Part shown: positions 3,979-53,933 of the stretch, piece by piece
Layout of the letters: each line of letters starts with the position of its first letter
How positions within the stretch are numbered: position 1 is the first letter of the stretch
Origin: Closterium sp. NIES-65
Taxonomy: Eukaryota > Streptophyta > Zygnematophyceae > Desmidiales > Closteriaceae
Reading direction: 5' to 3'
Assembly: GCA_948144175.1 (NCBI GenBank)
Contig: CANXME010002454.1
Location: 62,001-126,000, forward strand
DNA: 64,000 nt
Translations under genes and position numbers: made by a program
Notes under the pieces: model-generated
What the model was told of the DNA's origin: nothing
The model's database searches: none
What the model saw: only the letters and a program-made list of their open reading frames with translations

Positions 3979-4047
3979 GCTAAGCGCCAGTGGGCGAGAG
4001 CAGTACTGGGCTGGGTGACCTCCCGGGAAGTCCTCGTGTTGTACCCA
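3979..4047 (+). pseudogene. 5S rRNA gene, 3' part (positions 51-119) next to L0
   Basis: This matches positions 51-119 of the intact 119-bp 5S genes in the window, with one substitution in box A (GCGCCAG for GCGCCGG). The first 25 bases (3979-4003) are the right copy of the L0 target-site duplication. Box A lacks only position 50. The intermediate element and box C are complete, so the internal promoter may survive although the first 50 nt of the rRNA are replaced by LINE sequence. Confidence 0.92.
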
Positions 4048-5543
4048 TTTATGCCCCTTGCTCGGCACGTGCCGGGGGAGGGGCAAGCGGGAAAAAGAAA
4101 GGACGATTTTAGCGCGTCCGATTCTTTCATTTTCGTTTTTTTGCCCAAACAACGACCCAGCGGGGTGGGGGGCCCCCGGGGAGGCTTGCCCGTGCGAAGA
4201 AACGCCCCGTGCGCACCACCGTTGGGCGGTTGGAAGCCGCACACGGTCGCGGGGGTGCAGAGCGGAAACGGGCAGCCGGGGGAGGGTGGGGGCGGTTGGA
4301 TGGGACTTGGGGTGTACGGGGGGCAGGGGAGTTGAGGGGGCAAGGGGAGGGGCAGCAACGGGCAGGGGCTGGGCCAACTGAGGGCACGGAAAAGGGGCGG
4401 GCAGAGGGTGAGCAGAGGGGCGAGCGATGCAAGGGTGGCACCATAGGGGGGAAACCAGTTGCACGGAGGTGGGAGGTGAGGGGCGTGCGAGGGGGTGGGA
4501 AAGGGGCAGGGAGGGGCAGAATGGGAGGATGTAGGTGGGGGGGGTGGGGGAGGGGAGTGTGCGTGTGTGTGTGTGTGTGTGAGAAAGAGAGAGAGAGAGA
4601 GAGAGAGGGAGGGGGGGATTGAAGGGTGGGAGGGGGGCTGGTCGTGGGGATGGGCTGATGGTGGTAAGAGGGCAGCAGGGATGGGGAGAAGGGAGCGTAA
4701 CGAGGGGAGAGCAAAGGGCAGGGGGGGAGGAAGGGAGGGGCAGGGAGGGAAGAGGCTGAACGTACAAAGGGGGGAAACGAGGGGCATGGATGATAGGAAA
4801 CGAGGGCAGGGGTGTGGGAAATCAAGGGCAGGGAGGAGAGAAGCAATGGGTGAGGGGAAAACAAGGGAGGGGCAGACGGGGGGCAGGGAGGGAAGAAACG
4901 TGGGGCAGGGAGGGGAGAAGCCAAAGACAGGGGCATGGGCAGGCGGGGGCAGGGAGGGAGCAAAGGAGAGGCACGGAGAAAGAAAGGGAGGCGCGGGGAG
5001 GGGAGAAACCGGGCGTGGGGGGGGCGGAAAATGAGGGGCAGGGCGGGGAGGAGGGAGGGGCAGGGAGGGGAGAAGCTGAGCACACGGAGGGGGGAAAGGT
5101 GAGGCAGGGAGGTAGGAAGCCAAGGACAAGGGGGGGGAGAGTGGGGGGGGGCAGGGAGAGGGGGGAGGTGGGGAGCGGGGAAAGGCGGCGAGGGGCAGGG
5201 AGGGGAGAAACCAAGCATAGGGGGGCGAGATACGAGGGGCAGGGTGCGGATTGAGGAGGGGCAGGGAGTGGAGTGGGTCGGCGAGGGGAAGGAAGAGGCG
5301 TGCAGCAGAGGAGGGGAGGGGGGAGGAGAAGGTAAAGGAGGGGAGCGCACGGGCGGGGAGGAGCGAATGGCGGGCGGTGGGAAACGGCGAGGGGGGGCAG
5401 GGAGGGTCAAAAGAGGCGGCAAGGGAGCGGGCACGCGGAGGGTAGGGGCGGGGGGAGCGGATGGCATGAGGGGGCAGGGGGTGTGACTATGAAGGGGGGG
5501 ACCCGGGCAAGGGGTGTGTAGCGGTCGGGGCACGAGGTTGACG
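4048..5543 (+). repeat. 5S intergenic spacer, unit 1
   Basis: Non-transcribed spacer of the 5S repeat, about 1.5 kb. The first 100 bp hold T runs (TTTT about 60 bp after the gene, then T7-T8) that could stop Pol III. The rest is strongly purine-rich on the + strand, with degenerate subrepeats of the type GGGGCAGGGAGGGGAGAAAC and many G runs. A (GT)n(GA)n microsatellite lies at 4557-4607. The open frames found on either strand are compositional, and no gene is supported. Confidence 0.85.
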
Positions 5544-5617
5544 TGGTACGATCATACCTCGGCTACTACGCCGGACCCATCAGAACTCCGAAGCTAAGCG
5601 CCGGTGGGCGAGAGCAG
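5544..5617 (+). pseudogene. 5S rRNA gene, 5' part (to position 75) next to L1
   Basis: The 5' part of a 5S gene, from TGGTACGATCATACC to ...GAGAGCAG. It has one base missing in the GGATCCCAT segment relative to intact copies. It ends at native position 75, where the L1 3' end begins. Box A and the intermediate element remain, but box C and the 3' end are lost, so this fragment cannot make 5S rRNA. Confidence 0.93.
5593..5617 (+). repeat. Target-site duplication of L1, left copy (25 bp)
   Basis: Identical over 25 bp to 22622-22646 on the other side of L1; it corresponds to 5S positions 51-75. A duplication this long is typical of target-primed reverse transcription with widely staggered nicks. 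Confidence 0.93.
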
Positions 5618-5970
5618 ATATTCATTATTAGGGGAAGAGCAAATACAAGCCGAATATAATGGTTTTTCCAAGACTAGGAAATTTTGACATAGCCTTATCG
5701 CTATGAGGACGGTATATATATTTTGTAGGAAAAGGGGGAAAGAAAGGAAAGGAAGGAAGGATGAAGGAGTAAGAAGAAGTGGTAGGGAAAAGAAGAGGGT
5801 GGGAGGAAGAGAAGGGAAGGATAGAAGAAGGGAACTGAAAGAGGGAGGTGGGAAGAGAAAAGGAGAGAGGGAGAGAGACTAAGGAGGAGGAAGCACCAAA
5901 GGACCACAACACGGCAGCAACCCGCACGACCGCACGGGCACAGCGTTTCAAGCACAGCCACTATTGTTTT
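5618..5970 (-). other. LINE 3' UTR (L1)
   Basis: About 350 bp between the stop codon and the 5S junction. It is GA-rich on the + strand (GGAAAGAAAGGAAAGGAAGG type). It has no poly(A) or simple 3' tail. The last bases are probably the part read first by the element's reverse transcriptase. Confidence 0.75.
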
Positions 5971-8900
5971 TTACACATATGCATCATATATATACTGCAT
6001 ATCAGCCACACTCTCGAAGCACCCTGTGACGTGGTGCCAAGTACCCTGCCCCGCACCCAGTGGGACTGGTGCGGGCATCCACCCGTCGTCGGATCTCCCT
6101 AACTGCCGCACCGCATGCTGGATCATGCATTGAGCCTGCGCGCGCTGCAGTGCAACGGAGAGGCGTGTAGTGAGTCCTGCCTCAAATATCCGTGCCGATC
6201 CGTCATCCCCCCCACCTCTATCCCTTCTCCGCTGTGCTATCCTCTTTGCGCAGAGCCCCAGAAACTGACGCAGCGGCTCACTGAGAAGGCCAAAGGTCTC
6301 CGCCACGCACGCGTAAAAGTGTGGTGCCGGCTGCAGCCCCTCTAAATGCGGCCCCCAGTGCCGCAGCTTCTCCTGCACCCGCCTAGCTGCTGCCACTCCA
6401 ATTTGTGTGGGGGTCGCCCGTCTCAGCTGCACGTTCCCCTCCCGCTGTGGATCCGCTATGGAGACATCCACAAGAACCATCAGACCCTGGCTAACGTCGC
6501 GGCAGGTGAGGTCTGGGATGCGGGAGGCGGTGCCTACACGGCCTGTGTGTCCGACTGGTCCCTGCTGTTGCGCTGGCTGCTGCCCTGTCTGGTCCCTTGG
6601 TGCCTCCTCTCCGATCGTCTCTCTCCCCCTCTCCTCTCCTCCATCCACCTGTCCTCTCCCCTCCCCCTCTCTACCCTCCCCCAACCCTCCCAACCCCCCT
6701 GCTCCATCCCCTGCTGCCTCTCTCACTCCCTGGCCCTCCCCTCCCAATCCCGCTGCCCCTCCTGTACCTCCGTCCGCTCTCTGCTGCTCCCGCCCCTGCC
6801 CCACCTCCGAGGCCGAACCTGGAGGCGCGGCGCCCTGGGCCCGCGGCCTCCACTGGCTCTCCTGCTGCTGCCTGTGTTGTCTCCCCTCCCCGTCCTGGCC
6901 CGTCTGCTCCCCCTGCCGTCCCCTCTGCCCACCTGTCCCTCGCTCCACCTGACCCCGCAGCTGGTGCTGTCCCCAATGTCCCCCGCCACCCGGCTGTCCC
7001 GCCTCGCCTCTCTGCTCCCCCGGTCCCTCAGCCCGCGTCCCCTCTCCCACCACTGGCTGTCCCAGTAGTCTCGCTCGAGCCGCCTCCAACTGTGTGAACA
7101 GCGTAGAGTCCTCCACCTTTACCGCGAAGCCCGCCTCGACCGCAAAGTCTCGAAGCATGTACTTCACCGTGTCGTGGATGGTAGTGGCGACCCCGTAGCG
7201 CGGGCACCGGACCGCGTGATGAGGCACCATCATGTCGTCAATCGCCTGTCCGCAGGAGCACTGACCTGCAAGGGCTAATTGGGGGATCGGGAGGCCAAGA
7301 CGAGAAGATGAAGCCGCCTGCCACAGCGCCTCCGGGATGCGCAGTGGGTCAGCGTACGGCACCGACGTCAACCACGCCCCTGCACCTCCTCCCTGAAGGG
7401 AAGTCAAACGGGCAAGGTGCAAGGGAGAGGCGTGACGGGCACGCACGGCCTCCAAGGCCTGCGCCTCCAGAAGACGGCTCGCTCCTGCAAAAAGGGAATC
7501 GGGGGAGGCAGAAGCGCAGGAGGGCCAGGGGGGAAGGAGAGAGAGAACGTCAGGTGGGAGACCCTCTAGCGCCGTCTGCAGAGCCCGGTCGATCTGCTCT
7601 GGCTCACCTGAAGCGAAGCTCTGCCGAAACACCTCGCCACACGCAGGGAGAGAACAGAGAATGGGAGCACACTGCACCCAGGAGCACACGAAACTCACCG
7701 GGGCAATGCGTGCCATGCGACGAATGCCGAAACCCCCGAGACGAATGGGGAGGAAGATCTGGTCTAGGGCGGCCTCTCGGACGTCCTCGCAACAAGCCCA
7801 GGTCCCTGAAGCTAAAAGCTGCTGAAATGTCTCTCCCAGGCGTGCGTTCCACCGTGTAAAACTAGAGATCACTGCGGGCGAATGAGGGACGGTCCTCGAC
7901 AGGTACTGCGGACGAGTGCTGACACACGCCGACAGAAGGCGGGCAGCTGTCTGGGGCTGGCGCAACCTCGGAAGCCAAGGTAGCACCCGCCCCATCCTCT
8001 CGAGACGATCCGGGAGACTCTGCTCCACGAACGAAACGGTGCCTACCGGTACGCCTGTCACGGTGAGCCCTCGGCGTGCGACCTCGATCCCTAGGCCCGT
8101 GAAGGCCTCCAGATCCCTGGACAGAAAGGACTCTGTCTGGTAGACGAGGCACTTGTGCGGCTGGGCTGCAAGGCCCATCTCGCCCAAGCGCCTCACGATC
8201 TCGGTAAAGTGGTGCAGCACCCTGTCTGGGGGACCTAGCACGTACGTGTCATCGGCGTACGACCAGAGCTGGACATCCCCCTCCACCAGAACCGGCTCCA
8301 AAGCAAGACGCTGTGTCAGAGCGTACAAGAAGGGGCTGAGAGGGTCTCCCTGGCGAGTGCCCCGCTCCGAGTGCATCGTGACCACTCCCGTGCCTGACCT
8401 GTAGTGGAGATCCGAGGGCGTCCCGTAGAAGAGGCCGATGAAGGGGATCAGGCACTGAAACTCCGGGCTGGCCTGCAGCGCCTGGAACATCCTGTCTCGG
8501 TGGAAGGAGTTAAAGGCATTCGCCACATCTGGCTGCAGGACCACCCAGTCTGGGTGGTCAGCCAGAGCGCGGCGGACGCCTCTAACTACGACCTCTGTCC
8601 CGCACGTAACCCCCACCCCAAACTGCTGTGACGCCAAGAAGACCCTCGCCATCTGGTCACGTAGCTGGAGACAGACTGCACGAGAAAGAATGCGGACCAA
8701 AACCTCGCCGATGGCAATCGGCCGAACATCCATGTTCGACTTCGCCAGAGCCACGAGGGTGGAAGACGCTAGCAAGGAGCGCGCAGCTGGAGCGCAACGG
8801 CCTCGAAGCCACTGCTGGTACACGGCAAGGAGGAAATGGAGACTCTGAGGGAAAGCTAGGAAAGTGTCTCGCAGGTGCTCAGCGACCCAACCGGACGGTA

Positions 8901-11900
8901 CTCCCGAAGAGCCCCGCGGAGCTGTGAAGATCGCGCGGCGTAAGTGATCCACCGAGAGCACGAGAGGGGACCTCTGGAAGCCAGACTGCCAAGCTGGGGT
9001 CGGCCTCTCCGCGTTGGGGTGCTTCGACTGCAGGCGCTGTATCGTCCCCTGTGTATCTGGGGCTGCCTCCGCGGACTCGAGAGCCGCGCACGCCCGTGAG
9101 GTCTCATTGCACGCTGCCAGACGAAGGCAACGTGCAATGCGGCGCTCATCTGCTGTAGAGGGATCGGTGGCGGTGCGTGACCGGTGACCTGTGCGCCGAG
9201 GAAGGGGTGTGCGACGGCCTAGTGCATCTGAGACTAGCTCAGCCCACTCACCTCGACCAAAGCGGGAGATGCGCGTTGCAATGGCAGCCGTGTGCGAGCG
9301 GTCGGGTGGCGTCGCTGGAACAAGGAAAAGAGTCGGCGCTGCAGCGAGGAGGAAGGTAGGGCCAGCAGCCTCCGGGTCCTGGGCAATGCGGACTAGGATC
9401 GCACTGAGGACGTTGAGATATCCTCCGCGGACCCTCTCCGGGACACGTCGGAGAGGGCGTGCATGGATACGCTCGGGCGAGAAGTACTCTGTCCAGTCCA
9501 CCGAGTCGAGCGTCTGCCACTGTGCGTCGGTGAACTGTATCCCGGTTGCACGGGGCTGTGAGAGGGAAGGGATGATCGAGGCGGTATCATGGGCAGCCTG
9601 CGCCCTGCGAGCCGCGTCTGCAGGATGGCAGAAGGGAATGTGGTGCTGGAGCGCGCGTCGGTTCGCGAAAGAGCTCCTGCAGGTGGGGCAACTCACGACC
9701 TGGTCGGGTGATGTCGCCGTGTCGGCGGGGTCGATCGGGGCCATGGCGTCGGAACTGGCTGTAGAGGGGACCCCGTGGGCGGCCTGAGCTCCGAGAGGAT
9801 CGCCTGGGATGAGGGGAGGAGACGACTCACCAGCCCCGTGCGGGGGGGGTGTCAGCGAAGATAGAGGTGGTGTCGCACAGGATAGGGCCGGGCCTCGTGC
9901 CGGTACCGGTGTCGAAGCTGGGGAGGGGGGACGTGGAGGTGAGCCTGAAGTGTGTACCGTGGTGTGCTCCTGCCCCTCGGCGGGGTGCGGTTCAAGTGAC
10001 GGCTCTGCTACCCCAGGCGGAGGGGTCTCGGTAGGGGCGGATGCCTCATCCCTACTGCTGGTGACCTCCTGCGCCACGGGCTGAACGGGGGGAGGCGCCA
10101 CCCCCTCTAGGTGCGCGTGACACGGCCTCAGAACCCGGTCCGTCTCCATTGGGGTCGGGAGTGACGCGCCTGGCTGAGTGGCGGGGGGGATAAAAGAAGG
10201 GACAGACCGGGTGACTTCCGCATACGTCCGGGTCCGGTCCTGTGGGACTGGAAGGGTGGGGGCAGCCGGAGAGCTGCTCGGGCGGTGTATCGCCAGCAAA
10301 TCTGAAATGCCAGCCCTCACCTCCTCTGGGGTCTCGAAGACCTGCCTGCCTGTAGGTGAGAGTAGGAGGGCTGGCAGGGTAGAGGGTGGAGTGGGGCTTG
10401 CTGGCTGAGCGGAGCTCGGGTGTGGACCCTGCCCTAGAAGGCCCCCTTGGCCCTCCCCAATCACCATGGGTTGCGGTAGGGGGTCGTCGACATGGAAGGG
10501 GTGGGAGGGATGGGAGGGGGAGTCGGTGGCGTCTTCCATGGGCGCATCCCTCAACCCGACGGCCTCCATCCCCGTAGCGATCGCGGCCGCCGCCACCTGG
10601 GAGGGGGACACAGCAAGGGAGGGGCAGAATGGGGGAGAGTGGGCTGGTCCGCTCCCATGGCCCTGTGGAGGTGTAGGAGCGGGGCGGGAGTGTGGGTTTG
10701 GTGGTCGGGCTGTAGCGGTAGGGCCTGGTAAGGGTTCAACAGGATGCGGGGTGGGGAGGGGCTCTTGGTGGGGGAGGGAGGGAGGGGGGAGTACGTGGGC
10801 TGACCCTCTGCCTCCTCTGCCCCTGTTCTTCCGCCGGCGGCCAACCCGGTTGTCCGCGCCTGTTTGTGAAGGAAGGGGGGGCTGTGGGGCCAAAGGGGTG
10901 GTTGGAGGGAGGATGGGTGGTTCGCCGGGCGGGGGGTGCTCTGTGTGCATCCCCTCTCTCCTCGAGACATCCCCCTCCGTGGGGACAGATCGGGCAGGCT
11001 GTGTGTGGGGGGTGATGGCTGCCCAACGGGGCCACTCGTGGGGAACCCGGCCGGGAGGGGGGGTTGAAGGTGGGGGTCGAGGGGCTGGGCCAGTGTGGAG
11101 GTTAGAGCGAGGTACAAACGGTGGGGGGAGAGGGGTTTGTGTGGGCTCTGTGGTGGCCTCTCCTGTGGGCCCCTCTACCCGGGTGCCGCCGCTCCCATGA
11201 GCCTGGGGCGCAAGCCCTTGCGGGTGGGTCTCGGCTGCCTGGGGGGGGTGGTGTGAGGGGGGCAGCCTGTTGGGTGGGCGTGTTGGGGCTGTGCGGCGAC
11301 TCGGGTGGTTTGGGTGCCTGTAGCGTGTGGGAGAGGGATTTGGCCGCAGAGATGCTTCAACCTCCGAGATGTGTGTACTACCGGGTGGGGGGGGGCCTGG
11401 TGGAGGGGGGGGTAGTGGGCCGGTAGGGGGTGGCTGGGTGTTGGTAGGGGTCGGGGAGCATGGCTCCTCTAGGAAGGCCAGAGCCCTGGCTGCTCCACGT
11501 GGTGCTCTAAGGAGCCCCTGAGGGTGGGGGCAGAGGTGTGCTGCCCTTGGGGGTGAGGGGAGGAGTGAGGGAAGGGGCGGGGAGGGGTGAGAGGTGAGAG
11601 AAGGGGTGCCCTCGGGTGACTCTGCTCTTGTCGCACCCGCGTGCTCTCCCGGTGGACCGCCTGCAACCGTGGGGTCAGGGGTTGGGGACGGAGAGGGGGG
11701 CTGGCCATGGAGCAACGTGGGGGTCGGGGAGCACGGCTCCGCCAAGAAGGCCAGGGCCTTGGCTGCCCCCCTGGATACTACCGGGACCTGAGGGTGGGGG
11801 TGGGGAAATGGTGCTCCTGGGGGTGGGTGGGCTGGAGGACGGGAGGTGAGGATGGGGGCTCCCTCGTGCGGCTCTGTCCTCAAGGTCTCCCCCAGCCCCT

Positions 11901-15221: not shown

Positions 15222-15234
15222 AACTCCCCCTCGG
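15222..15234 (-). other. Copia polypurine tract
   Basis: On the minus strand CCGAGGGGGAGTT lies immediately before the 3' LTR, the usual place of the plus-strand primer. Confidence 0.8.
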
Positions 15235-15263
15235 ATTGTTGGCCCTTCGGATATGTTGCTCTC

Positions 15264-42122: not shown

Positions 42123-45100
42123 TTACACATATGCATCATATATATACTGCATATCAGCCACACTCTCGAAGCACCCTGTGACGTGGTGCCAAGTTCCCTG
42201 CCCCGCACCCAGTGGGACTGGTGCGGGCATCCACCCGTCGTCGGACCTCCCTAACTGCCGCACCGCATGCTGGATCATGCATTGAGCCTGCGCGCGCTGC
42301 AGTGCAACGGAGAGGCGTGTAGTGAGTCCTGCCTCAAATATCCGTGCCGATCCGTCATCCCCCCCACCTCTATCCCTCCTCCGCTGTGCTATCCTCTTTG
42401 CGCAGAGCCCCAGAAACTGACGCAGCGGCTCACTCAGAAGGCCAAAGGTCTCCGCCACGCACGCGTAAAAGTGTGGTGCCGGCTGCAGCCCCTCTAAGTG
42501 CGGCCCCCAGTGACGCAGCTTCTCCTGCACCCGCCTAGCTGCTGCCACTCCAATCTGTGTGGGGGTCGCCCGTCTCAGCTGCACGTTCCCCTCCCGCTGT
42601 GGATCCGCTATGGAGACATCCACAAGAACCATCAGACCCTGGCCAACGTCGCGGCAGGTGAGGTCTGGAATGCGGGAGGCGGTGCCTACACGGCCTGTGC
42701 GTCCGACTGGTCCCTGCTGTTGCGCTGGCTGCTGCCCTGTCTGGTCCCTTGGTGCCCCCTCTCCGATCGTCTCTCTCCCCCTCTCCTCTCCTCCATCCAC
42801 CTGTCCTCTCCCCTCCCCCTCCCTACCCTCCCCCAAACCTCCCGACCCCCCTGCTCCATCCCCTGCTGCCTCTCTCACTCCCTGGCCCTCCCCTCCCAAT
42901 CCCGCTGCCCCTCCTGTACCTCCGTCCGCTCTCTGCTGCTCCCGCCCCTGCCCCGCCCCCGAGGCCGAACCTGGAGGCGCGGCGCCCTGGGCCCGCGGCC
43001 TCCACTGGCTCTCCTGCTGCTGCCTGTGCCGTCCCCCCTCCCCGTCCTGGCCCGTCTGCTCCCCCTGCCGTCCCCTCTGCCCACCTGTCCCTCGCTCCAC
43101 CTGACCCCGCAGCTGGTGCCGTCCCCACTGTCCCCCGCCACCCGGCTGTCCCGCCTCGCCTCTCCGCTCCCCCGGTCCCTCAGCCCGTGTCCCCTCTCCC
43201 ACCACTGGCTGTCCCAGTAGTCTCGCTCGAGCCGCCTCCAACTGTGTGAACAGCGTAGAGTCCTCCACCTTTACCGCGAAGCCCGCCTCGACCGCAAAGT
43301 CTCGAAGCATGTACTTCACCGTGTCGTGGATGGTAGTGGCGACCCCGTAACGCGGGCACCGAACCGCGTGATGAGGCACCGTCATGTCGTCAATCGCCTG
43401 TCCGCAGGAGCACTGACCTGCAAGGGCTAACTGGGGGATAGGGAGACCAAGACGAGAAGATGAAGCCGCCTGCCACAGCGCCTCCGGGATGCGCAGTGGG
43501 TCGGCGTACGGCACCGACGTCAACCACGCTCCTGCACCTCCGCCCTGAAGGGAAGTCAAACGGGCAAGGTGCAAGGGAGAGGTGTGACGGGCACGCACGG
43601 CCTCCAAGGCATGCGCCTCCAGAAGACGGCTCGCTCCTGCAAAAAGGGAATCGGGGGAGGCAGAAGCGCAAGAGGGCCAGGGGGGAAGGAGAGAGAGAAC
43701 GTCAGGAGGGAGACCCTCTAGCGCCGTCTGCAGAGCCCGGTCGATCTGCTCTGGCTCACCTGAAGCGAAGCTCTGCCGAAACACCTCGCCACACGCAGGG
43801 AGAGAACAGAGAATGGGTGCACACTGCACCCAGGAGCACACGAAACTCACCGGGGCCATGCGCGCCATGCGACGAATGCCGAAACCCCCGAGACGGATGG
43901 GGAGGAAGATCTGGTCTAGGGCGGCCTCTCGGACGTCCTCGCGACAAGCCCAGGTCCCTGAAGCTAAAAGCTGCTGAAAAGTCTCTCCCAGGCGTGCGTC
44001 CCACCGTGTAAAACTGGAGATCACTGCGGGCGAAGGAGGGACGGTCCTCGACAGGTACTGCGGACGAGTGCTGACACACGCCGAAAGAAGGCGGGCAGCT
44101 GTCTGGGGCTGGCGCAACCTCGGAAGCCAAGGTAGCACCCGCCCCATCCTCTCGAGACGATCCGGGAGACTCTGCTCCACGAACGAAACGGTGCCTACCG
44201 GTACGCCTGTCACGGTGAGCCCTCGGCGTGCGACCTCGATCCCTAGGCCCGTGAAAGCCTCCAGATCCCTGGACAGAAAGGACTCTGTCTGGTAGACGAG
44301 GCACTTGTGCGGCTGGGCTGCAAGGCCCATCTCGCCCAAGCGCCTCACGATCTCGGCAAAATGGTGCAGCACCCTGTCTGGGGGACCTAGCACGTACGTG
44401 TCATCGGCGTACGACCAGAGCTGGACATCCCCCTCCGCCAGAACCGGCTCCAAAGCAAGACGCTGTGTCAGAGCGTACAAGAAGGGGCTGAGAGGGTCTC
44501 CCTGGCGAGTGCCCCGCTCCGAGTGCATCGTGACCACTCCCGTGCCTGACCTGTAGTGGAGATCCGAGGGCGTCCCGTAGAAGAGGCCGATGAAGGGGAT
44601 CAGACACTGAAACTCCGGACTGGCCTGCAGCGCCTGAAACATCCTGTCTCGGTGGAAAGAGTTAAAGGCATTCGCCACGTCTAGCTGCAGGACCACCCAG
44701 TCTGGGTGGTCAGCCAGAGCGCGGCGGACGCCTCTAACTACGACCTCTGTCCCGCACGTAACCCCCACCCCAAACTGCTGTGATGCCAAGAAGACCCTCG
44801 CCATCTGGTCACGTAGCTGGAGACAAACTGCCCGAGAAAGAATGCGGACCAAAACCTCGCCGATGGCAATCGGCCGAACATCCATGTTCGACTTCGCCAG
44901 AGCCACGAGGGTGGAGGACGCTAGCAAGGAGCGCGCAGCTGGAGCGCAACGGCCTCGGAGCCACTGCTGGTACACGGCCAGGAGGAAATGGAGACTCTGA
45001 GGGAAAGCTAGGAAAGTGTCTCGCAGGTGCTCAGCGACCCAACCGGACGGTCCTCCCGAAGAGCCCCGCGGAGCTGTGAAAATCGCGCGGCGTAAGTGAT

Positions 45101-48100
45101 CCACCGAGAGCACGAGAGGGGACCCCTGGAAGCCAGACAGCCAAGCTGGGGTCGGCCTCTCCGCGTTGGGGTGCTTCGACTGCAGGCGCTGTATCGTCCC
45201 CTGTGTATCTGGGGCTGCCTCCGCGGACTCGAGAGCCGCGCACGCCCGTGAGGTCTCATTGCACGCTGCCAGACGAAGGCAACGTGCAATGCGGCGCTCA
45301 TCTGCTGCAGAGGGATCGGTGGCGGTGCGTGACCGGTGACCTGTGCGGCGAGGAAGGGGTGTGCGACGGCCTAGTGCATCTGAGACTAGCTCAGCCCACT
45401 CACCTCGACCAAAGCGAGAGATGCGCGTTGCAATGGCAGCCGTGTGCGAGCGGTCGGGTGGCGTCGCTGGAACAAGGAAAAGAGTCGGCGCTGCAGCGAG
45501 GAGGAAGGTAGGGCCAGCAGCCTCCGGGTCCTGGGCAATGCGGACTAGGATCGCACTGAGGACGTCAAGATATCCTCCGCGGACCCTCTCCGGGACACGT
45601 CGGAGAGGGCGTGTATGGATACGCTCGGGCGAGAAGTACTCTGTCCAGTCCACCGAGTCGAGCGTCTGCCACTGTGCGTCGGTGAACTGCATCCCGGTCG
45701 CACGGGGCTGTGAGAGGGAAGGGATGATCGAGGCGGTATCATGGGCAGCCTGCGCCCTGCGAGCCGCGTCCGCAGGATGGCAGAAGGGAATGTGGTGCTG
45801 GAGCGCGCGTCGGTTCGCGAGAGAGCTCCTGCAGGTGGGGCAACTCACGACCTGGTCGGGTGATGTCGCCGTGTCGGCGGGGTCAATCGGGGCCGTGGCG
45901 TCGGAACTGGCTGTAGAGGGGACCCCGTGGGCGGCCTGAGCTCCGACAGGATCGCCTGGGATGAGGGGAGGAGACGACTCACCAGCCCCGCGCGGGGGGG
46001 GTGTCAGCGAAGATAGAGGTGGTGTCGCACAGGATAGGGCCGGGCCTCGTGCCGGCACCGGTGTTGAAGCTGGGGAGGGGGGACGTGGAGGTGAGCCTGA
46101 AGTGTGTGCCGTGGTGTGCTCCTGCCCCTCGGCGGGGTGCGGTTCAAGTGACGGCTCTGCTACCCCAGGCGGAGGGGTCTCGGTAGGGGCGGATGCCTCA
46201 TCCCTACTGCTGGTGACCTCCTGCGCCACGGGCTGAACGGGGGGAGGCGCCACCCCGTCTAGGTGCGAGTGACACGGCCTCAGACCCCGGTCCGTCTCCA
46301 TTGGGGTCGGGAGTGACGCGCCTGGCTGAGTGGCGGGGGGGATAAAAGAAGGGACAGACCGGGTGACCTCCGCATACGTCCGGGTCCGGTCCTGTGGGAC
46401 TGGAAGGGTGGGGGCAGCCGGAGAGCTGCTCAGGCGGTGTATCGCCAGCAAATCTGAAATGCCAGCCCTCACCTCCTCTGGGGTCTCGAAGACCTGCCTG
46501 CCTGTAGGTGAGAGTAGGAGGGCTGGCAGGGTAGAGGGTGGAGTGGGGCGTGCTGGCTGAGCGGAGCTCGGGTGTGGACCCTGCCCTAGAAGGCCCCCTT
46601 GGCCCTCCCCAATCACCATGGGTTGCGGTAGGGGGTCGTCGACATGGAAGGGGTGGGAGGGATGGGAGGGGGAGTCGGTGGCGTCTGCCATGGGCGCATC
46701 CCTCAACCCGACGGCCCCCCTCCCAGTAGCGATCGCGGCCGCCGCCACCTGGGAGGGGGACACAGCACGGGAGGGGCAGAATGGGGGTGAGTGGGCTGGT
46801 CCGCTCCCATGGCCCTGTGGAGGTGCAGGAGCGGGGCGGGAGTGTAGGTTTGGTGGACGGGCTGTAGAGGTAGGGCCTGGTAATTGTTCAACGGGATGTG
46901 AGGTGGGGAGGGGCTCTTGGTGGGGGAGGGAGGGAGGGGGGAGTACGTGGGCTGACCCTCTGCCTCCTCTGCCCCTGTTCTTCCGCCGGCGGCCAACCTG
47001 GTTGTCCGCGCCTGTTTGTGAAGGAAGGGGGGGCTGTGGGGCCAAAGGGGTGGGTGGAGGGAGGATGGGTGGTTCGCCAGGCAGGGGGTGCTCTGTGTGC
47101 ATCCCCACTCTCCTCGAAACATCCCCCTCCGTGGGAACAGATCGGGCAAGCTGTGTGTGGGGGGTGATGGCTGCCCAACGGGGCCACTCGTGGGGAACCC
47201 GGCCGGGAGAGGGGGTTGGAGGTGGGGGTCGAGGGGCTGGGCCAGTGTGGAGGTTAGAGCGAGGTACAAACGGTGGGGGGAGAGAGATTTGTGTGGGCTC
47301 TGTGGTGGCCTCTCCTGTGGGCCCCTCTACCCGGGTGCCGCCGCTCCCATGAGCCTGGGGCGCAAGCCCTTGCGGGTGGGTCTCGGCTGCCTGGGGGGGG
47401 TGGTGTGGGGAGGGCAGCCTGTTGGGTGGGCGTGTTGGGGCTGTGCGGCGACTCGGGTGGTTTGGGTGCCTGTAGCGTGTGGGAGAGGGATTTGGCCGCA
47501 GAGATGCTTCAACCTCCGAGATGTGTGTACTACCGGGTGGGGGGGGGCCTGGTGGAGGAGGGGGTAGTGGGCCGGTAAGGGGTGGCTGGGTGTTGGTAGG
47601 AGTCGGGGAGCATGGCTCCTCTAGGAAGACCAGAGCCCTGGCTGCTCCACGTGGTGCTCTAAGGAGCCCCTGAGGGTGGGGGCAGAGGTGTGCTGCCCTT
47701 GGGGGTGAAGGAAGGAGTGAGGGAAGGGGCGGGGAGGGGTGAGAGGTGAGAGAAGGGGTGCCCTCGGGTGACTCTGCTCTTGTCGCACCCGCGTGCTCTC
47801 CCGGTGGACCGCCTGCAACCGTGGGGTCAGGCGTTGGGGACGGAGAGGGGGGCTGGCCATGGAGCAGCGTGGGGGTCGGGGAGCACGGCTCCGCCAAGAA
47901 GGCCAGGGCCTTGGCTGCCCCCCTGGACACTACCGGGACCTGAGGGTGGGGGTGGGGAAGTGGTGCTCCTGGGGGCTGGTGGGCTGGAGGACGGGAGGTG
48001 AGGATGGGGGCTCCCTCGCGCGGCTCTGTCCTCAAGGTCTCCCCCAGCCCCTCCATCGGTCCTTCTGCTAGCATGGGGACGGGCATGGGGGGTAGAGGGG

Positions 48101-50162
48101 GAACCTCGACGTGAGGCTGCAGGGGGGCCGGGTCGGCCTCACCGTCAAGCGTGAGGTATTGGGCCAGTGGCCCGTCAATGTGCATCACATCCTCTCCCTC
48201 ATCCTCCTCTATCGCTATCACATCCCCCTCTTCAGTGCCCACCCCGGTCGGGACCACCCTCCCCTCTCCTTCCCCTGTTGCCCCTATGTCCCCCAAGCCC
48301 ACCCCGCCTGCTGCCGCTTTACTGCTAGCCCCTTTTGCAGTCTCTGCCGGCCCTGCCGGCCCTGCTGTGTGTTTCCCCGAGTTTGCTGCGGCCCCTGCCG
48401 CCCCTACTGGCCGTGCTATGGCCCTCCCTGCTGCTTCAGCTGCAGCCTCACCTTCTGCCTTTGAGGCCCCTGCCGTACCCTCTCTTGCTACAGCCGGGGC
48501 GGCACTCTCCCTCGCACCAGTCCCCGTTACCCCCTTCCCCGCTGCACCCGTAGCACCTCCCCCTATACCAGCCCCCGCTGTGGCCTCTGTCGCTCCTGCT
48601 GCAGTCCTTGCAGCCTCGACTGCTGCAGTCTGTAAAACCTCGCCTACCGTAATCTGCTCAGCCTCACCAGCCGCGATCCCTGTAGCCTCACGTGCTGCAG
48701 TCCCTGCAGCCTCACGTGCTGCAGTCCCTGCAGCCTCACCCGCTGCAGTCCCTGCGGCCTCACCTGCTGCAGTCTGTGCAGCCTCACCTGCTAGAATCTG
48801 CTCAACCTCACATGCTGCGGCCTCTGCAGCCTCACCTGCTGCGGCTATTTCAGCCTCACCTGCTGCGCTCCCTGCGGCCTCACCTGCCATGGTCCCGCCT
48901 GCAGCCTCATCCGCTGTGGTCCCTGCCGCCTCACCTGCTGCAGTCCCTGCGGCCTCACCTGTTGCAGTCCATGCGACCTCACCAGCTGTAGACTGTGCAG
49001 CCTCACCTGCTAGAGTCTGCCCAACCTTACATGATGCAGCCCTCGCAGCCTCACCTGCTGCGTCCGCCGCAGCCTCACCTGCTGTGGCCCCTGCAGTCCC
49101 GCCTGCTGCGCTCCCTGCAGCCTCGCCTGCTGCGCTCCCTGCAGCCTCGCTTGCTGCGCTCCCTGCGGCCTCACCTGCTGCGCTCTCTGCAGCCTCACCT
49201 GCTGCGCCCCCTACAGCCTCACCTGCTGCGCTCCCCGCAGCCTCACCTACTGCGCTCCCTGCGGCCTCACCTGCCATGGTCCCTCCTGCAGCCTCACCCG
49301 TTGTGATCCCTGCAGCCACACCTGCTGTGGTCTGTGCGGCCTCACCTGGTGCGGTCCCTATAGCCTCCTCTGCTGCGGTTCCCCCAGCCGACACAGCAGC
49401 AGGTTCCGTGGCCCCTACTCCTGCAAAACCTGTCTCCATGGCCTCTGCCCTTTGCCTGGCCAGAGTCACGGTCCCTGCCGCCCCTTCCCGTGCAGCCCCT
49501 GCCGCCCTTTCCCGTGCAGCCGCTGCTGCCCCTTCCCTTGCAGCCTCTGCTGCCCTTTCCTCTGCAGCCTCTGCTGCCCCTTCCCCCACAACCCCCATTG
49601 CCCCTTCCCGTGCAGCCTTTGCTGCCCCATCCTCTGTAGCCTCTGCTGCTCCTTCACACACAAACTCACTTACCCCTTCCCGTGCAGTGTCAGCTGCAAG
49701 TTCCCCCCTGGCTCTGCCCTCTCCCGCTTCTATGTGCTTGGGGGTGCGGGTAGGATTAAGTGTTTTCACAAGTAATCTGGTTTGCGAATGGGAGGTAGCG
49801 AGTGAGTTGGAGGATCTCTCTACTGAGCATGCATGGGTGCCGCCCCCGCTGTCACCTGAAGGGGGGGTAGACTGGGATGGGGCAGCGGGGGTAGGGCGCG
49901 GTTTTGAGCGTGCTGGCTCCTCCTCGTGTATTTCCTCCAGTGGGGCTTGGCGTTCCTCTGTTCCATCCTCTTCAAAGGTACGCTTCTGGCCCCTAGGGTC
50001 AGATTGTGTGAGTGTTTTCGCTTGGTCAGGTGTGTGTTGTTTCTTCCTGACTGTTGAAGTGGGGGGAGTGGGAGAGTAGGGGGTGGCTCGGCTGCGGGAC
50101 CTCCCAGATCGCCGAGGGGCTCCCGGGCCTGCCTTTCCCCCACTCGCGGGGTGCTGGGGCAT
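42123..50162 (-). CDS. LINE polyprotein: zinc finger, reverse transcriptase, RLE endonuclease (L3)
   Basis: Best reference copy, 2679 residues from the ATG at 50162. The basic N terminus (1-160) is followed by Ala/Gly/Glu repeats (about 170-640) and a Pro-rich region (about 680-1420). A C2H2 finger is at 1441-1462 (C-X2-C-X12-H-X4-H). The RT spans about 1760-2020, with first Asp 1828 (LDVANAFN), RQGDPLSP at 1886 and YADD at 1918-1921. The CCHC knuckle is C2251-X-C2253...H2264-X4-C2269. A Gly/Gln/Glu-rich insert fills about 2310-2480. The RLE motif is P2499-D2500...D2515, with a candidate Lys at 2548. R2-type elements have this order in about 1000-1200 residues, so the N-terminal half and the insert are unusual. 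Inferred role: sequence-specific nicking of 5S DNA and target-primed cDNA synthesis. Confidence 0.92.
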   Translation of the reverse strand: MPQHPASGGKAGPGAPRRSGRSRSRATPYSPTPPTSTVRKKQHTPDQAKTLTQSDPRGQKRTFEEDGTEERQAPLEEIHEEEPARSKPRPTPAAPSQSTPPSGDSGGGTHACSVERSSNSLATSHSQTRLLVKTLNPTRTPKHIEAGEGRARGELAADTAREGVSEFVCEGAAEATEDGAAKAAREGAMGVVGEGAAEAAEERAAEAAREGAAAAARERAAGAAREGAAGTVTLARQRAEAMETGFAGVGATEPAAVSAGGTAAEEAIGTAPGEAAQTTAGVAAGITTGEAAGGTMAGEAAGSAVGEAAGSAAGEAVGGAAGEAAESAAGEAAGSAASEAAGSAAGEAAGSAAGGTAGATAGEAAADAAGEAARAASCKVGQTLAGEAAQSTAGEVAWTATGEAAGTAAGEAAGTTADEAAGGTMAGEAAGSAAGEAEIAAAGEAAEAAACEVEQILAGEAAQTAAGEAAGTAAGEAAGTAAREAAGTAAREATGIAAGEAEQITVGEVLQTAAVEAARTAAGATEATAGAGIGGGATGAAGKGVTGTGARESAAPAVAREGTAGASKAEGEAAAEAAGRAIARPVGAAGAAANSGKHTAGPAGPAETAKGASSKAAAGGVGLGDIGATGEGEGRVVPTGVGTEEGDVIAIEEDEGEDVMHIDGPLAQYLTLDGEADPAPLQPHVEVPPLPPMPVPMLAEGPMEGLGETLRTEPREGAPILTSRPPAHQPPGAPLPHPHPQVPVVSRGAAKALAFLAEPCSPTPTLLHGQPPSPSPTPDPTVAGGPPGEHAGATRAESPEGTPSLTSHPSPPLPSLLPSPPRAAHLCPHPQGLLRAPRGAARALVFLEEPCSPTPTNTQPPLTGPLPPPPPGPPPPGSTHISEVEASLRPNPSPTRYRHPNHPSRRTAPTRPPNRLPSPHHPPQAAETHPQGLAPQAHGSGGTRVEGPTGEATTEPTQISLPPPFVPRSNLHTGPAPRPPPPTPSPGRVPHEWPRWAAITPHTQLARSVPTEGDVSRRVGMHTEHPLPGEPPILPPPTPLAPQPPLPSQTGADNQVGRRRKNRGRGGRGSAHVLPPPSLPHQEPLPTSHPVEQLPGPTSTARPPNLHSRPAPAPPQGHGSGPAHSPPFCPSRAVSPSQVAAAAIATGRGAVGLRDAPMADATDSPSHPSHPFHVDDPLPQPMVIGEGQGGLLGQGPHPSSAQPARPTPPSTLPALLLSPTGRQVFETPEEVRAGISDLLAIHRLSSSPAAPTLPVPQDRTRTYAEVTRSVPSFIPPATQPGASLPTPMETDRGLRPCHSHLDGVAPPPVQPVAQEVTSSRDEASAPTETPPPGVAEPSLEPHPAEGQEHTTAHTSGSPPRPPSPASTPVPARGPALSCATPPLSSLTPPPRGAGESSPPLIPGDPVGAQAAHGVPSTASSDATAPIDPADTATSPDQVVSCPTCRSSLANRRALQHHIPFCHPADAARRAQAAHDTASIIPSLSQPRATGMQFTDAQWQTLDSVDWTEYFSPERIHTRPLRRVPERVRGGYLDVLSAILVRIAQDPEAAGPTFLLAAAPTLFLVPATPPDRSHTAAIATRISRFGRGEWAELVSDALGRRTPLPRRTGHRSRTATDPSAADERRIARCLRLAACNETSRACAALESAEAAPDTQGTIQRLQSKHPNAERPTPAWLSGFQGSPLVLSVDHLRRAIFTAPRGSSGGPSGWVAEHLRDTFLAFPQSLHFLLAVYQQWLRGRCAPAARSLLASSTLVALAKSNMDVRPIAIGEVLVRILSRAVCLQLRDQMARVFLASQQFGVGVTCGTEVVVRGVRRALADHPDWVVLQLDVANAFNSFHRDRMFQALQASPEFQCLIPFIGLFYGTPSDLHYRSGTGVVTMHSERGTRQGDPLSPFLYALTQRLALEPVLAEGDVQLWSYADDTYVLGPPDRVLHHFAEIVRRLGEMGLAAQPHKCLVYQTESFLSRDLEAFTGLGIEVARRGLTVTGVPVGTVSFVEQSLPDRLERMGRVLPWLPRLRQPQTAARLLSACVSTRPQYLSRTVPPSPAVISSFTRWDARLGETFQQLLASGTWACREDVREAALDQIFLPIRLGGFGIRRMARMAPVSFVCSWVQCAPILCSLPACGEVFRQSFASGEPEQIDRALQTALEGLPPDVLSLLPPWPSCASASPDSLFAGASRLLEAHALEAVRARHTSPLHLARLTSLQGGGAGAWLTSVPYADPLRIPEALWQAASSSRLGLPIPQLALAGQCSCGQAIDDMTVPHHAVRCPRYGVATTIHDTVKYMLRDFAVEAGFAVKVEDSTLFTQLEAARARLLGQPVVGEGTRAEGPGERRGEAGQPGGGGQWGRHQLRGQVERGTGGQRGRQGEQTGQDGEGGRHRQQQESQWRPRAQGAAPPGSASGAGQGREQQRADGGTGGAAGLGGEGQGVREAAGDGAGGSGGLGEGREGEGRGQVDGGEERGRETIGEGAPRDQTGQQPAQQQGPVGRTGRVGTASRIPDLTCRDVGQGLMVLVDVSIADPQREGNVQLRRATPTQIGVAAARRVQEKLRHWGPHLEGLQPAPHFYACVAETFGLLSEPLRQFLGLCAKRIAQRRRDRGGGDDGSARIFEAGLTTRLSVALQRAQAQCMIQHAVRQLGRSDDGWMPAPVPLGAGQGTWHHVTGCFESVADMQYIYDAYV
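48592..49380 (-). repeat. 24-bp coding minisatellite (L3, long form)
   Basis: Long array of the AAGEAAGT-type octapeptide units, in frame, with repeated GCCTCACCTGCTGC cores on the + strand. Confidence 0.85.
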
Positions 50163-52297
50163 TGTTACAGAGGCAGCATGCCTGGCGGTGGCGGTGTGAG
50201 TTGCTGGGGTTGGCTCAAGAGGGCGTCAAAGGGGGAAGGAACTCCCTGGCAGAGGCCGGGGTGCGGGGGGTTAGCTTGGGGAAAGGGGAAAAGGGTGGGG
50301 AAAGCGGTGCGCAGTGGGTGGAAGAGAGGGTAGAGGGGGCCTGACAGTTGGAGGGGATTGGGGCCCAAGGGGGGGGCGGGCTGGGGGCCGATTGAGAGGG
50401 GAAGTGTTGGCGGGCTGTAGTGGAGGTGGGGGGGCGGGGGTGGTGTAGCGGTGGGTGAGCAGGGTGTGGGGACAGGTGGTGGGCCAGAGGTGGGGAGGGC
50501 AGGGCAGAATTCCACGGGAGGTGGGGGTGGGCAGGTGGAGCCAGGTGGGAAAGGAAGGGTGGGGAACAGAGAGGAAGGGGCAAAGGGTAGTGGGTAGTCG
50601 AGTTGGCGTGAGCCTGGTAGCGGGTAATGAGAAGGTTGGGAGGCGGGGGGTGAGAACGTGGGAGGGCAGAGAGGGCACCGAAAGGAGGTGCTGTGGTAAA
50701 TGCAGGATAGGATGCGGGGCCGGGAAACAGGGGACAGAGGGAATTGGGGAATCGATGAAGGGTGATAGCTGCGGATGGGCGAGCCCCAGGGGGGAGGAAA
50801 TATGGAGGGTGTTGGAGAAGGGGGAGACTGGGGGGGGTTGAGGTAGGGTGTTGGAGGGCACAAGGGGCAGGAACAGGGGGTGCAAAAGTTGGCTGGGGGA
50901 GGGAGAGGCGGTCTGGTGCCGCGGAAAGGCGGAGGGAGGTTGGGGACGGCACAGCCCAGGGAGCAAAAGCAAGGGGTGTAGACCTTGGCTGGGGGTAGGA
51001 ACGGCGGTGTGGAGTTAGGGAGAGGTAGAGGGAGGCTGGGGTAGGTGGCTGGATTGCGCAGGGAGCAGGGGCAGGGGGTGTAGAGATTGGATGGGGGTGG
51101 GAAAGGCGGCGTGGTGCCAGGTGGCGGCAGTTGGGTCACCGAAGGGCCTGGCAGGGCGGGATGCAGAGGTGCAGCCCACGCTGGATGCGGAAGTAGCTGG
51201 GGGGGAAAGGGAGGCTGGAGGGGGAAGTACGGCTCGTAGAGGTGTGGGGGGCAGAGTGGGAGTGGGGAAAGCAGGAAGGGGGGTGGAGGGACGTTGTGGA
51301 CAGGGGAGTGGGGGAACATGCGGGTGATGATAGGGAGAAGCCGGGGGGGGGGGAGAAGGGGGAGGTGGTATGAAGTGGGCAAGGGTGACGCACGGGCAGA
51401 GCGCGGCGGTACTAAGGGCAGGGAGACGGGAGGCTGGGGGGAGAAAGGCCTGCTTGGGGGCGTGGTGGGGGATAAGGGGAGAGGGGCGGTAATGCTGGTG
51501 GGCAAAAGGGGAGGGTGTGGTGTAGTATGATGAAACAGAATGGGGGGGTGGCGGACTGGGTGGGGCCCTGGAGGGTTGGGAGAACAAGGTGTAAGCTGCC
51601 TTTCTGATTTTTCCTGGTTTTTTCGGATTTATATGAATTTCTTTTTCTTTTCTTTTTTCCTTGAAGTTGTTTCCTCTTATTTCCTACGGTTTCCAGAAAC
51701 AGGGCGGCCTCTGCTAGCTAAGCGCCGTTAGGGAAAGAGGTTAGGTGGCGGGGTGGCTAAAGCGCGCGTGTGAGGGGGAAAGGGGCGGTGTGAGCAGGGA
51801 GGTGACTATGTGGGTGGCGACGGGGTAAAATTACGACGTGTGGGTGGCATGCACGAGTGCGCGACGAGGCACGGCAGGGTGGGAGTGAGCAAAAGGGGAG
51901 TGGGGCGGCTTGTGTGCCAAACGTGGGCGGCTAAAACGCTCTAGGCAGAAAACGCGCTTCGGGAGGCGCGCAAGGGGAGGGCTGCTTAATCGCTACGAAC
52001 GTAGCAATTTCGCCTCCCTCCGCGCTGCCTTTCCCTGGCGGTAAGCGCCCCGTGCGCGGTTCCGTCTACGTCGCGGCTAGATTGAACAGGCGGGGAAAAC
52101 GAGTGCATGACTAAACATGATAGGCGACGAGAAAGCGTGCTTGGAAACGCGCGGCTCTTCGAATTAGGGTTACGATAAAGAAGGGCGCACCGAAAGGGAA
52201 GGAAGAGTGCTAACTACGGGCGGAAGCTAAGCTCAGTGACTTCGAGAGAGGGAAACCGCGGGAAAAAACTCGGTAGCAGCTAATCGCTTACCGGGCT
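50163..52297 (-). other. LINE 5' leader (L3, shortened)
   Basis: Homopurine zone to about 51590, T-rich zone about 51615-51690, then only part of the CpG-rich terminal domain. The 5S-like 12-mer is at 51716-51727. The hairpin region of L0-L2 is missing. Confidence 0.62.
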
Positions 52298-52349: not shown

Positions 52350-52881
52350 TTTATGCCCCTTGCTCGGCACGTGCCGGGGGAGGGGCAAGCGGGAAAAAGA
52401 AAGGACGATTTTAGCGCGTCCGATTCTTTTCTTTTCGTTTTTTTTGCCCAAACAACGACCCAGCGGGGTGGGGGGCCCCCGGGGAGGCTTGCCCATGCGA
52501 AGAAACGCCCCGTGCGCACCACCGTTGGGCGGTTGGAAGCCGCACACGGTCGCGGGGGTGGAGAGCGGAAACGGGCAGCCGGGGGAGGGTGGGGGCGGTT
52601 GGATGGGACTTGGGGTGTACGGGGGGCAGGGGAGTTGAGGGGGCAAGGGGAGGGGCAGCAACGGGCAGGGGCTGGGCCAACTGAGGGCACGGAAAAGGGG
52701 CGGGCAGAGGGTGAGCAGAGGGGCGAGCGATGCAAGGGTGGCACCATAGGGGGGAAACCAGTTGCACGGAGGTGGGAGGTGAGGGGCGTGCGAGGGGGTG
52801 GGAAAGGGGCAGGGAGGGGCAGAATGGGAGGATGTAGGTGGGGGGGGGTGGGGGAGGGGAGTGTGCGTGTGTGTGTGGTGT

Positions 52882-52924
<43 letters not shown>

Positions 52925-53858
52925 GGGGATTGAAGGGTGGGAGGGGGGCTGGTCGTGGGGATGGGCTGATGGTGGTAAGAGGGCAGCAGGGATGGGGAGA
53001 AGGGAGCGTAACGAGGGGAGAGCAAAGGGCAGGGGGGGAGGAAGGGAGGGGCAGGGAGGGAAGAGGCTGAACGTACAAAGGGGGGAAACGAGGGGCATGG
53101 ATGATAGGAAACGAGGGCAGGGGTGTGGGAAATCAAGGGCAGGGAGGAGAGAAGCAATGGGTGAGGGGAAAACAAGGGAGGGGCAGACGGGGGGCAGGGA
53201 GGGAAGAAACGTGGGGCAGGGAGGGGAGAAGCCAAAGACAGGGGCATGGGCAGGCGGGGGCAGGGAGGGAGCAAAGGAGAGGCACGGAGAAAGAAAGGGA
53301 GGCGCGGGGAGGGGAGAAACCGGGCGTGGGGGGGGGGGGGCGGAAAATGAGGGGCAGGGCGGGGAGGAGGGAGGGGCAGGGAGGGGAGAAGCTGAGCACA
53401 CGGAGGGGGGAAAGGTGAGGCAGGGAGGTAGGAAGCCAAGGACAAGGGGGGGGAGAGTGGGGGGGGCAGGGAGAGGGGGGAGGTGGGGAGCGGGGAAAGG
53501 CGGCGAGGGGCAGGGAGGGGAGAAACCAAGCATAGGGGGGCGAGATACGAGGGGCAGGGTGCGGATTGAGGAGGGGCAGGGAGTGGAGTGGGTCGGCGAG
53601 GGGAAGGAAGAGGCGTGCAGCAGAGGAGGGGAGGGGGGAGGAGAAGGTAAAGGAGGGGAGCGCACGGGCGGGGAGGAGCGAATGGCGGGCGGTGGGAAAC
53701 GGCGAGGGGGGGCAGGGAGGGTCAAAAGAGGCGGCAAGGGAGCGGGCACGCGGAGGGTAGGGGCGGGGGGAGCGGATGGCATGAGGGGGCAGGGGGTGTG
53801 ACTATGAAGGGGGGGACCCGGGCAAGGGGTGTGTAGCGGTCGGGGCACGAGGTTGACG
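52350..53858 (+). repeat. 5S intergenic spacer, unit 7
   Basis: As unit 1; the microsatellite (52861-52919) has a GT part interrupted by GGTG and a short GA part. It differs from unit 6 in this part and in two G-run lengths, then becomes indistinguishable from it. Confidence 0.86.
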
Positions 53859-53933
53859 TGGTACGATCATACCTCGGCTACTACGCCGGATCCCATCAGA
53901 ACTCCGAAGCTAAGCGCCGGTGGGCGAGAGCAG
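53859..53933 (+). pseudogene. 5S rRNA gene, 5' part (positions 1-75) next to L4
   Basis: Unchanged positions 1-75, followed by the L4 3' end. Confidence 0.93.

Follow-up and report, generated by a model that had tools for sequence, protein, structure and literature searches.

A non-long terminal repeat retrotransposon, most likely of the restriction-like endonuclease type, inserted at one exact site in the 5S rRNA genes of Closterium sp. NIES-65

Results

The 5S array and the element copies that interrupt it

The stretch analysed here, referred to below as the window, comprises 64,000 nucleotides of DNA from the alga Closterium sp. NIES-65 (contig C2156, positions 62001-126000, in an assembly of 874 Mb and 2400 contigs). 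It holds an array of 5S ribosomal RNA (rRNA) genes with a unit of ~1.6 kb, in which five copies (L0-L4) of a non-long terminal repeat (non-LTR) retrotransposon of ~10.97 kb interrupt 5S genes, each antisense to the 5S (Table 1). The 3' junctions of L1-L4 are uniform: nucleotides 1-75 of the 5S gene end at window positions 5617, 29144, 41770 and 53933, and an identical element end adjoins each. At the 5' side, the 5S sequence restarts at nucleotide 51 after L0 (window 3979) and L1, at 55 after L2, and at ~68 beyond L3, following 8 extra nucleotides (window 52298). The 5' end of L4 lies outside the window; read from the contig, it differs from that of L3. L2 measures 10,967 bp counted from 29146, base 29145 not being set by the 5S, while L1 is 17,004 bp long because a copia element is nested inside it. 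This copia element is young and carries gag and pol open reading frames (ORFs), with no clear 6-bp target duplication at its ends as drawn.

In the array itself, the spacer contains a GT/GA microsatellite whose length varies among units (window 24840-24890, 26470-26525 and 28090-28130). On another contig, C253, two orientations of the array meet head to head, with a 5S right half at the switch (~88,840-88,960), which is either a real inversion or an assembly artefact.

Table 1. Features of the window, in window coordinates; residues refer to the L3 protein.
Feature	Position	Strand	Basis
L0, 5' part of element only (3' end beyond window)	1..3978	-	
Left half of L1-interrupted gene, 5S 1-75 (74 nt, one base missing)	5544..5617	+	
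L1, element copy with nested copia element, 2551-aa ORF	5618..22621	-	
Copia-type LTR element nested in L1 (LTRs 14440-15221 and 20078-20859)	14440..20859	-	LTRs 99.87% identical
Right half of L1-interrupted gene, 5S 51-119	22622..22690	+	
Intact 5S rRNA gene	24205..24323	+	Rfam RF00001, 88.3 bits
Intact 5S rRNA gene	25823..25941	+	Rfam RF00001, 91.9 bits
Intact 5S rRNA gene; empty site, counterpart filled on contig C235	27437..27555	+	Rfam, 97.5 bits; C235 spacers match in order
L2, full-length element; ORF broken, mostly by single-base indels	29145..40112	-	
Zone in L2 (element positions 437-467) where ten near-full-length truncated copies start	39646..39676	-	
Right half of L2-interrupted gene, 5S 55-119	40113..40177	+	
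L3, starts at element position 449 plus 8 extra nt; intact ORF	41771..52297	-	
3' untranslated region of L3; amplified 346-bp truncated form falls inside	41771..42122	-	
Single long ORF of L3, 2700 aa, first Met at residue 22	42123..50225	-	
Candidate restriction-like endonuclease, RIPDX14D, residues 2518-2618	42372..42674	-	motif; core conserved in sister copies
CCHC motif downstream of reverse transcriptase, residues 2272-2290	43356..43412	-	motif
Reverse transcriptase, residues 1778-1979, YADD	44289..44894	-	Pfam RVT_1, E 8.5e-18
CCHH zinc finger, residues 1462-1483	45777..45842	-	motif
L4, element copy leaving window	53934..64000	-	

Ends, size and truncated forms of the element

Read along the strand of the element, full-length L2 follows 5S-antisense sequence, starts with 5'-CTTACCTTGACC... 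and ends with ...TTAATGAATA, after which 5S-antisense sequence resumes. The 3' join falls after 5S nucleotide 75. It is followed by T, A or C, a base that the target does not dictate; in a stray copy on contig C676, described below, the target continues with G where the insert carries T.

Insert sizes were surveyed in the window, on C253 and in 80 kb of contig C571 (10-90 kb). In these sequences, 52 left 5S halves end at nucleotides 75-77, and 48 of them are paired with a right half; the four unpaired halves lie at the window edge or at contig or stretch ends. The inserts are 5' truncations of one element, with sizes of 346, 1435 and 1485 bp, ~10.5 kb and 10,967-10,969 bp, and one further copy is internally deleted. 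The 1435-bp insert, which had no anchor in the junction reading below, was assigned by half-pairing and alignment to the element. A class of 344-348 bp, falling inside the 3' untranslated region (UTR) and sharing the same 5' junction, accounts for 38 of the 48 paired inserts. From these repeated junctions, it is evidently one truncated insertion that was multiplied along with its 5S unit by array turnover.

The constant 3' end, the variable 5' truncation and the absence of LTRs form the signature of target-primed reverse transcription. The element has no LTRs and the 5S sequence lies outside it, which separates it from the 5S-bearing LTR elements of the Cassandra type. No conserved structure was recognised in the 3' UTR, where the one fold obtained had a z-score of -0.92 and 21 of 100 shuffles were equally good. 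R2 elements carry a hepatitis delta virus (HDV)-type ribozyme at their 5' end; an Rfam search over window 38600-40177 found none at the 5' end of this element.

Target specificity and occupancy across the genome

The element 3' terminus (31 places, ≤2 mismatches) has 252 matches in the genome, and 5S nucleotides 64-75 joined to the element terminus (35 places, ≤3 mismatches) have 251. Since both patterns gave 0 matches when read backwards, the junction pattern exceeds chance. Flanks on the 3' side were fetched on eight contigs, and all 20 of them, chosen among 40 scored rows (out of 267 candidates), carry 5S 1-75. Two additional 3' flanks from outside the 0-mismatch 5S-joined matches also carry 5S 1-75, and on C253 and in the 10-90 kb stretch of C571 each listed element 3' end adjoins 5S 1-76. 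A further genome scan scored 47 of 32806 candidates.

The two match sets are not nested, so a stray number calculated as 252 minus 251 was dropped and stray copies were sought by two direct filters. The filter for a base other than G at 5S position 64 returned three matches, namely two point-changed 5S flanks and the stray on C676. The same filter at position 65 returned two, C676 and a second stray on contig C1922. Both filters need an exact element end, and a stray with G at both positions would be missed.

These data show that the element inserts almost exclusively at one exact 5S site, and that this site specificity holds genome-wide. An earlier note, made from the letters of the window, had placed the four 3' junctions after 5S nucleotide 75 in one orientation and the L0-L2 5' junctions at 51-55, and had argued for site-specific insertion rather than chance. 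The coordinates check, and the genome-wide counts with their empty controls bear out the argument, as does the table of flanks that the note had proposed (20 of 20 fetched flanks, 251 5S-joined termini). It had also named copies in unrelated DNA as evidence to the contrary: the two strays are such copies.

The whole assembly contains 123 uninterrupted 5S genes (60-mer, ≤3 mismatches), and occupied genes are thus 251 of 374, or 67% of those in the assembly, a count that excludes unresolved arrays. A pattern spanning 5S 64-96 (346 matches) was left unused for occupancy because it also counts the right halves of interrupted genes.

A sister lineage served as a control. A reverse transcriptase (RT) search of the genome, in which 101 of 2728 candidates were scored, gave 94 rows whose identity to the query is 96% or more and seven with 81-86%. 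Four of these seven sister rows were fetched at the 3' side; the sister 3' terminus was readable in three, two of which have a common flank, and in the fourth (C1642) the 3' part passes into other sequence. The sister terminus (18 specified bases, ≤1 mismatch) has 12 matches in the genome, three of them tied to an RT, with at least seven different flanks. As none of the 12 lies in 5S, the 5S flanks are a property of the 5S-targeting family and not of the method. Three sister termini (C1655:355425, C1904:414277 and C1904:422057) have the common flank ACTACTACCTATT after variable bases, which may be the sister's own repeated target or may mark three duplicates.

Independent insertions and array turnover

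A constant 3' junction could reflect descent instead of targeting, if all copies came from one or very few insertions spread by unequal crossing-over and gene conversion. Some of the data fit such a history: the 344-348 bp class dominates the paired inserts of the three surveyed sequences, L0 and L1 have one 5' junction in common, and the junction of full-length copies (5S 55 to element 1, hereafter 55|1) occurs 62 times in the genome. The 5' junctions as a whole do not. We read 29 of them, 27 on-target and two stray, and the on-target ones comprise 15 distinct junctions, those of L3 and of a copy on contig C1491 being alike enough to represent possibly one event. Three of the 20 regions, which had no 5' junction, were left out of this reading (C220:94563, C989:29919 and C235:25176).

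Comparison of neighbouring copies also separates the history of the element from that of the array. L2 and L3 diverge by 1.83%; among the spacers that flank them (S4, B and C), by contrast, ~1.5 kb of sequence shows 0-1 mismatch and 3-4 small gaps. No base distinguishes L3 from L4 in the 10,066 bp compared, yet their 5' junctions are not alike, and an origin of the two by tandem duplication was rejected on this ground. On contig C235, the successive spacers correspond to those of the window, with 0/1502 mismatches in S1, 1/1497 in S2 and 2/1478 in S3 (S3 with 37 gap bases; for this spacer, the next best match stands at 11). The third 5S gene of C235 contains an element copy whose 5' junction is of the full-length kind, while the window counterpart at 27437-27555 is empty. 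The spacer after this gene again matches S4 (0/1512 mismatches). One gene further on, the insert is L2 in the window, and in C235 it is one of 346 bp. C235 may represent a second haplotype, or the region may have been duplicated recently. The strays, in addition, carry local duplications of their own.

Given the 15 on-target 5' junctions, the empty/filled pair and an element divergence far above that of the adjacent spacers, the insertions are, by their sequence, independent across the set. Amplification of one insertion, which the earlier note had itself raised as a possible refutation, is refuted for the whole set by the junctions and the empty/filled pair, and we regard it as extremely improbable there; it holds for the 346-bp class (38 of 48 inserts).

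The encoded protein

The predicted protein consists of a repetitive Ala/Gly-rich N-terminal part, a CCHH zinc finger, the RT, a CCHC motif, a low-complexity stretch and a C-terminal RIPDX14D motif. The N-terminal repeats differ in number between copies (window 48574-49400 and other copies), and L1 has a 441-bp in-frame gap. In Pfam, nothing except RVT_1 exceeded the cut-off, and the one NCBIfam match was a group II intron RT at 40 bits against a cut-off of 300. A Protein Data Bank (PDB) search with the RT matched R2 chains at E values of 1.7e-7, 3e-6 and 6e-6, as compared to 0.005 for human L1. Restriction-like endonucleases (RLEs) have a motif of the form K/R-PD-X12-14-D/E. The motif, the domain order and the conservation in the sister copies suggest that the C-terminal nuclease candidate is most likely an RLE.

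The other endonuclease class found in long interspersed nuclear elements (LINEs) is the apurinic/apyrimidinic endonuclease (APE) type, and Mutsu, a LINE of the Tx1 group, belongs to it. In the parts of the literature drawn on here, the zebrafish Mutsu is described as targeting the 5S rRNA gene (PMC3706591, PMC11202950), and a Mutsu-like origin of the present element would account for the target that the two have in common. However, Mutsu is ~5.5 kb long with two ORFs (PMC11202950) and has another host, in contrast to the single ORF and ~10.97 kb found here. Moreover, neither the two long ORFs nor the one upstream frame tested had an APE match in Pfam at E values up to 1, the C terminus bears CCHC and PDX14D, and the RT is nearer to R2 than to L1 in the PDB. 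A second, upstream ORF was considered (frames of 452-539 aa in the longer copies) and rejected: it has no Pfam match (one frame), no codon-position signal of selection, and indels mostly not in threes. We thus give a Mutsu-like element hardly any probability.

From the RT to its end, the coding sequence appears constrained. The ratio of nonsynonymous to synonymous change (pN/pS) is 0.20 between L1 and the C253c copy (47 synonymous, 27 nonsynonymous) and 0.18 between L2 and C253c (34 synonymous, 17 nonsynonymous), and the wrong reading frames show no synonymous excess. By this measure, the RT-to-end part is under purifying selection. Of 11 complete or partial copies read, six retain the full ORF, and the open frame is exactly 2700 aa in 19 of the 101 scored RT rows. 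Judged from these sequences, this is a recent family, and selection acted on its coding sequence. No relatives of the element were confirmed in viral contigs or prokaryote genomes.

Stray copies and the 5' junction

Both stray copies are full-length, with normal 3' ends and with 5S sequence solely at the element 5' side. In the 5S sense direction, C676 reads local AGAAATAGCAG, element, 5S 55-94 and again AGAAATAGCAG, that is, an 11-bp duplication with 40 nucleotides of 5S. C1922 reads AAAGGCAAG, element, 5S 55-87 with AGAGCAGT, and again AAAGGCAAG, a 9-bp duplication with 33 nucleotides of 5S. Because of the normal 3' ends and the short local duplications, the strays look like insertions and not like displaced pieces of the array. 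The 5S leader at the 5' side of both indicates that transcription of the template RNA probably begins within 5S, on its antisense strand, as is reported for R1 of Drosophila with 28S. This is the simplest reading of the strays and a new point of the present analysis.

The 55|1 junction, whose 62 occurrences include the two strays, admits another explanation: one full-length insertion may have been amplified with no RNA leader involved, the strays being array pieces displaced by recombination. All 62 matches have this junction in common and 5S arrays clearly turn over, which makes the idea worth weighing. A displaced array piece would, however, be expected to bear 5S on both sides, and the strays have none at the 3' terminus; they are also bounded by duplicated local DNA (11 and 9 bp), and their 5S lengths differ (40 and 33 nucleotides). 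R1 of Drosophila (melanogaster type), an APE-type LINE with a leader in the sense direction, offers a precedent. In the published account, as far as it is drawn on here, upstream 28S sequence of 7-28 bp accompanies full-length R1 copies that lie outside 28S; the junctions of full-length copies are precise, and those of truncated copies vary and come with duplications (PMC2718515). The two elements are alike in having strays with upstream target sequence, precise full-length junctions and variable truncated ones; they differ in that R1 is 28S-specific with a 7-28 bp leader of 28S, while here the leader is 33-40 nucleotides of antisense 5S. Overall, amplification with no leader seems to us unlikely, at perhaps one chance in a few.

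Truncated copies behave differently from full-length ones. Ten near-full-length truncated copies begin at element positions 437-467 (for C220:45525 the start was taken as 450 from the alignment, the exact-word reading having given 480), and their junctions differ, some with extra bases resembling a 5S-antisense copy. This cluster suggests a second class of RNA start. Among the 13 junction types of truncated copies, the 5S restarts at 60, 62-69 or 75, and once at 81 (a small deletion), with apparent duplications of up to 16 bp. Full-length copies have longer overlaps, of 21 and 25 bp, which may derive from the 5S leader.

The target could also be found through a host RNA polymerase III (Pol III) factor rather than the DNA sequence, as for TRE5 or Ty3. 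The insertion site presumably lies within the internal control region of the 5S gene, and TRE5 is described near 5S genes in the source consulted in part (PMC5911963). Insertion at one exact nucleotide argues against such a route, and so does the partial resemblance of both stray sites to the 5S nick. At C676, 6/8 and 7/14 of the bases before the nick match 5S; at C1922 the values are 4/8 and 5/14, with TACT after the nick. The resemblance hints at sequence recognition, weakly so for C1922, and we consider targeting through a Pol III factor improbable.

Discussion

A model for insertion into the 5S gene

Taken together, we think it highly probable that this non-LTR retrotransposon is autonomous, has been active recently and targets 5S by the mechanism outlined here as a whole; its type is most likely RLE (R2 group). 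Its protein would nick the 5S sense strand after nucleotide 75, a position deduced from the junctions, and the nicked end would prime reverse transcription of the element RNA, so that the element would come to lie in antisense orientation and its 3' end would be constant. The second strand would be cut loosely, at a variable distance upstream (apparently 7-16 bp in 11 of the 13 truncated junction types), giving short duplications and rarely a deletion. The full-length template RNA would start in antisense 5S, at or past position 94, and read into the element, so that a leader matching the target would yield the precise 5S 55 | element 1 junction. Leaderless RNAs, many starting near element positions 437-467, would account for the variable junctions, at which extra bases or microhomology occur. 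Some occupied units may then be multiplied when the 5S arrays undergo unequal exchange.

Several points weigh against this reading. The 5S leader is visible in just two stray copies, and the unvarying 55|1 junction may in part be due to a small number of insertions that were amplified. Eight of the ten copies in the 437-467 cluster were selected by RT identity (100%) and read over an interval picked so as to contain the zone. Contigs of a second haplotype, or duplicated ones, enter into the genome-wide counts. Most sister rows have stop codons; they are perhaps old survivors, a weaker control than active copies. The RLE was recognised by its motif, in which I precedes PD in place of K/R, and a four-sequence PD...D profile matched no R2 chain in the PDB, its sole match being gyrase B at chance level (E 0.89; 0.07 with a longer query). 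For the RLE-type C terminus proposed in the earlier note, the motif, the domain order and the lack of an APE match thus speak in favour, and the profile comparison with R2 does not.

Relation to known elements

The element resembles R2 and the R2 group (CRE, NeSL, R4 and Hero) in its single long ORF with CCHH, RT, CCHC and PD...D, in its exact insertion into a multicopy RNA gene and in its 5' truncations, and R2 chains are the best PDB matches of its RT. Unlike the R2 group, it targets 5S, a Pol III gene, in antisense orientation, and its ORF of 2700 aa has an N-terminal part that is long and repetitive, while its C-terminal region contains a low-complexity insert. The R2 clade proper is defined by the R2 site of 28S, and the present element inserts in 5S. 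CRE and R4 form target duplications, whereas NeSL and most R2 elements form deletions (PMC3636483, in part); the duplications seen here would fit the habit of CRE or R4.

Other elements share part of this profile. Utopia and NeSL are described as RLE-type LINEs in small RNA genes with a finger-RT-finger-RLE layout (PMC4640811, in part), and their targets are U2 small nuclear RNA or spliced leader genes instead of 5S. Dada-5S, which are DNA transposons found in 5S genes or arrays (PMC8869645, in part), and the Jockey-like LINEs in the 5S arrays of Tribolium freemani (PMC11202950, in part) have a comparable location but are different element types. No RLE-type 5S-specific LINE was found in the literature searched for one, a search with Repbase and most subscription journals outside its scope. 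The suggestion of the earlier note that this is an independent, possibly undescribed solution to the 5S target is consistent with these searches, within the literature outside Repbase. That an RLE-type LINE gained 5S specificity independently of the APE-type Mutsu, and retrotransposes from an antisense 5S/element co-transcript with a leader-guided junction while its sister copies lie outside 5S, is a compound proposal to which we give slightly better than even chances.

Implications

The 5S gene is hereby added to the targets reached by an apparently RLE-type LINE. R2 proteins are being developed for targeted transgene insertion (PMC11371274, PMC11331408, both in part). The 5S-specific family and its non-5S sister copies, with an RT identity of 81-86%, offer a natural comparison within one genome for the residues that set target choice, and the strays give a testable claim on where the template RNA starts. 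With roughly two in three 5S genes of the assembly occupied, in arrays whose assembly may hide or duplicate copies, the question arises how the host keeps making 5S rRNA.

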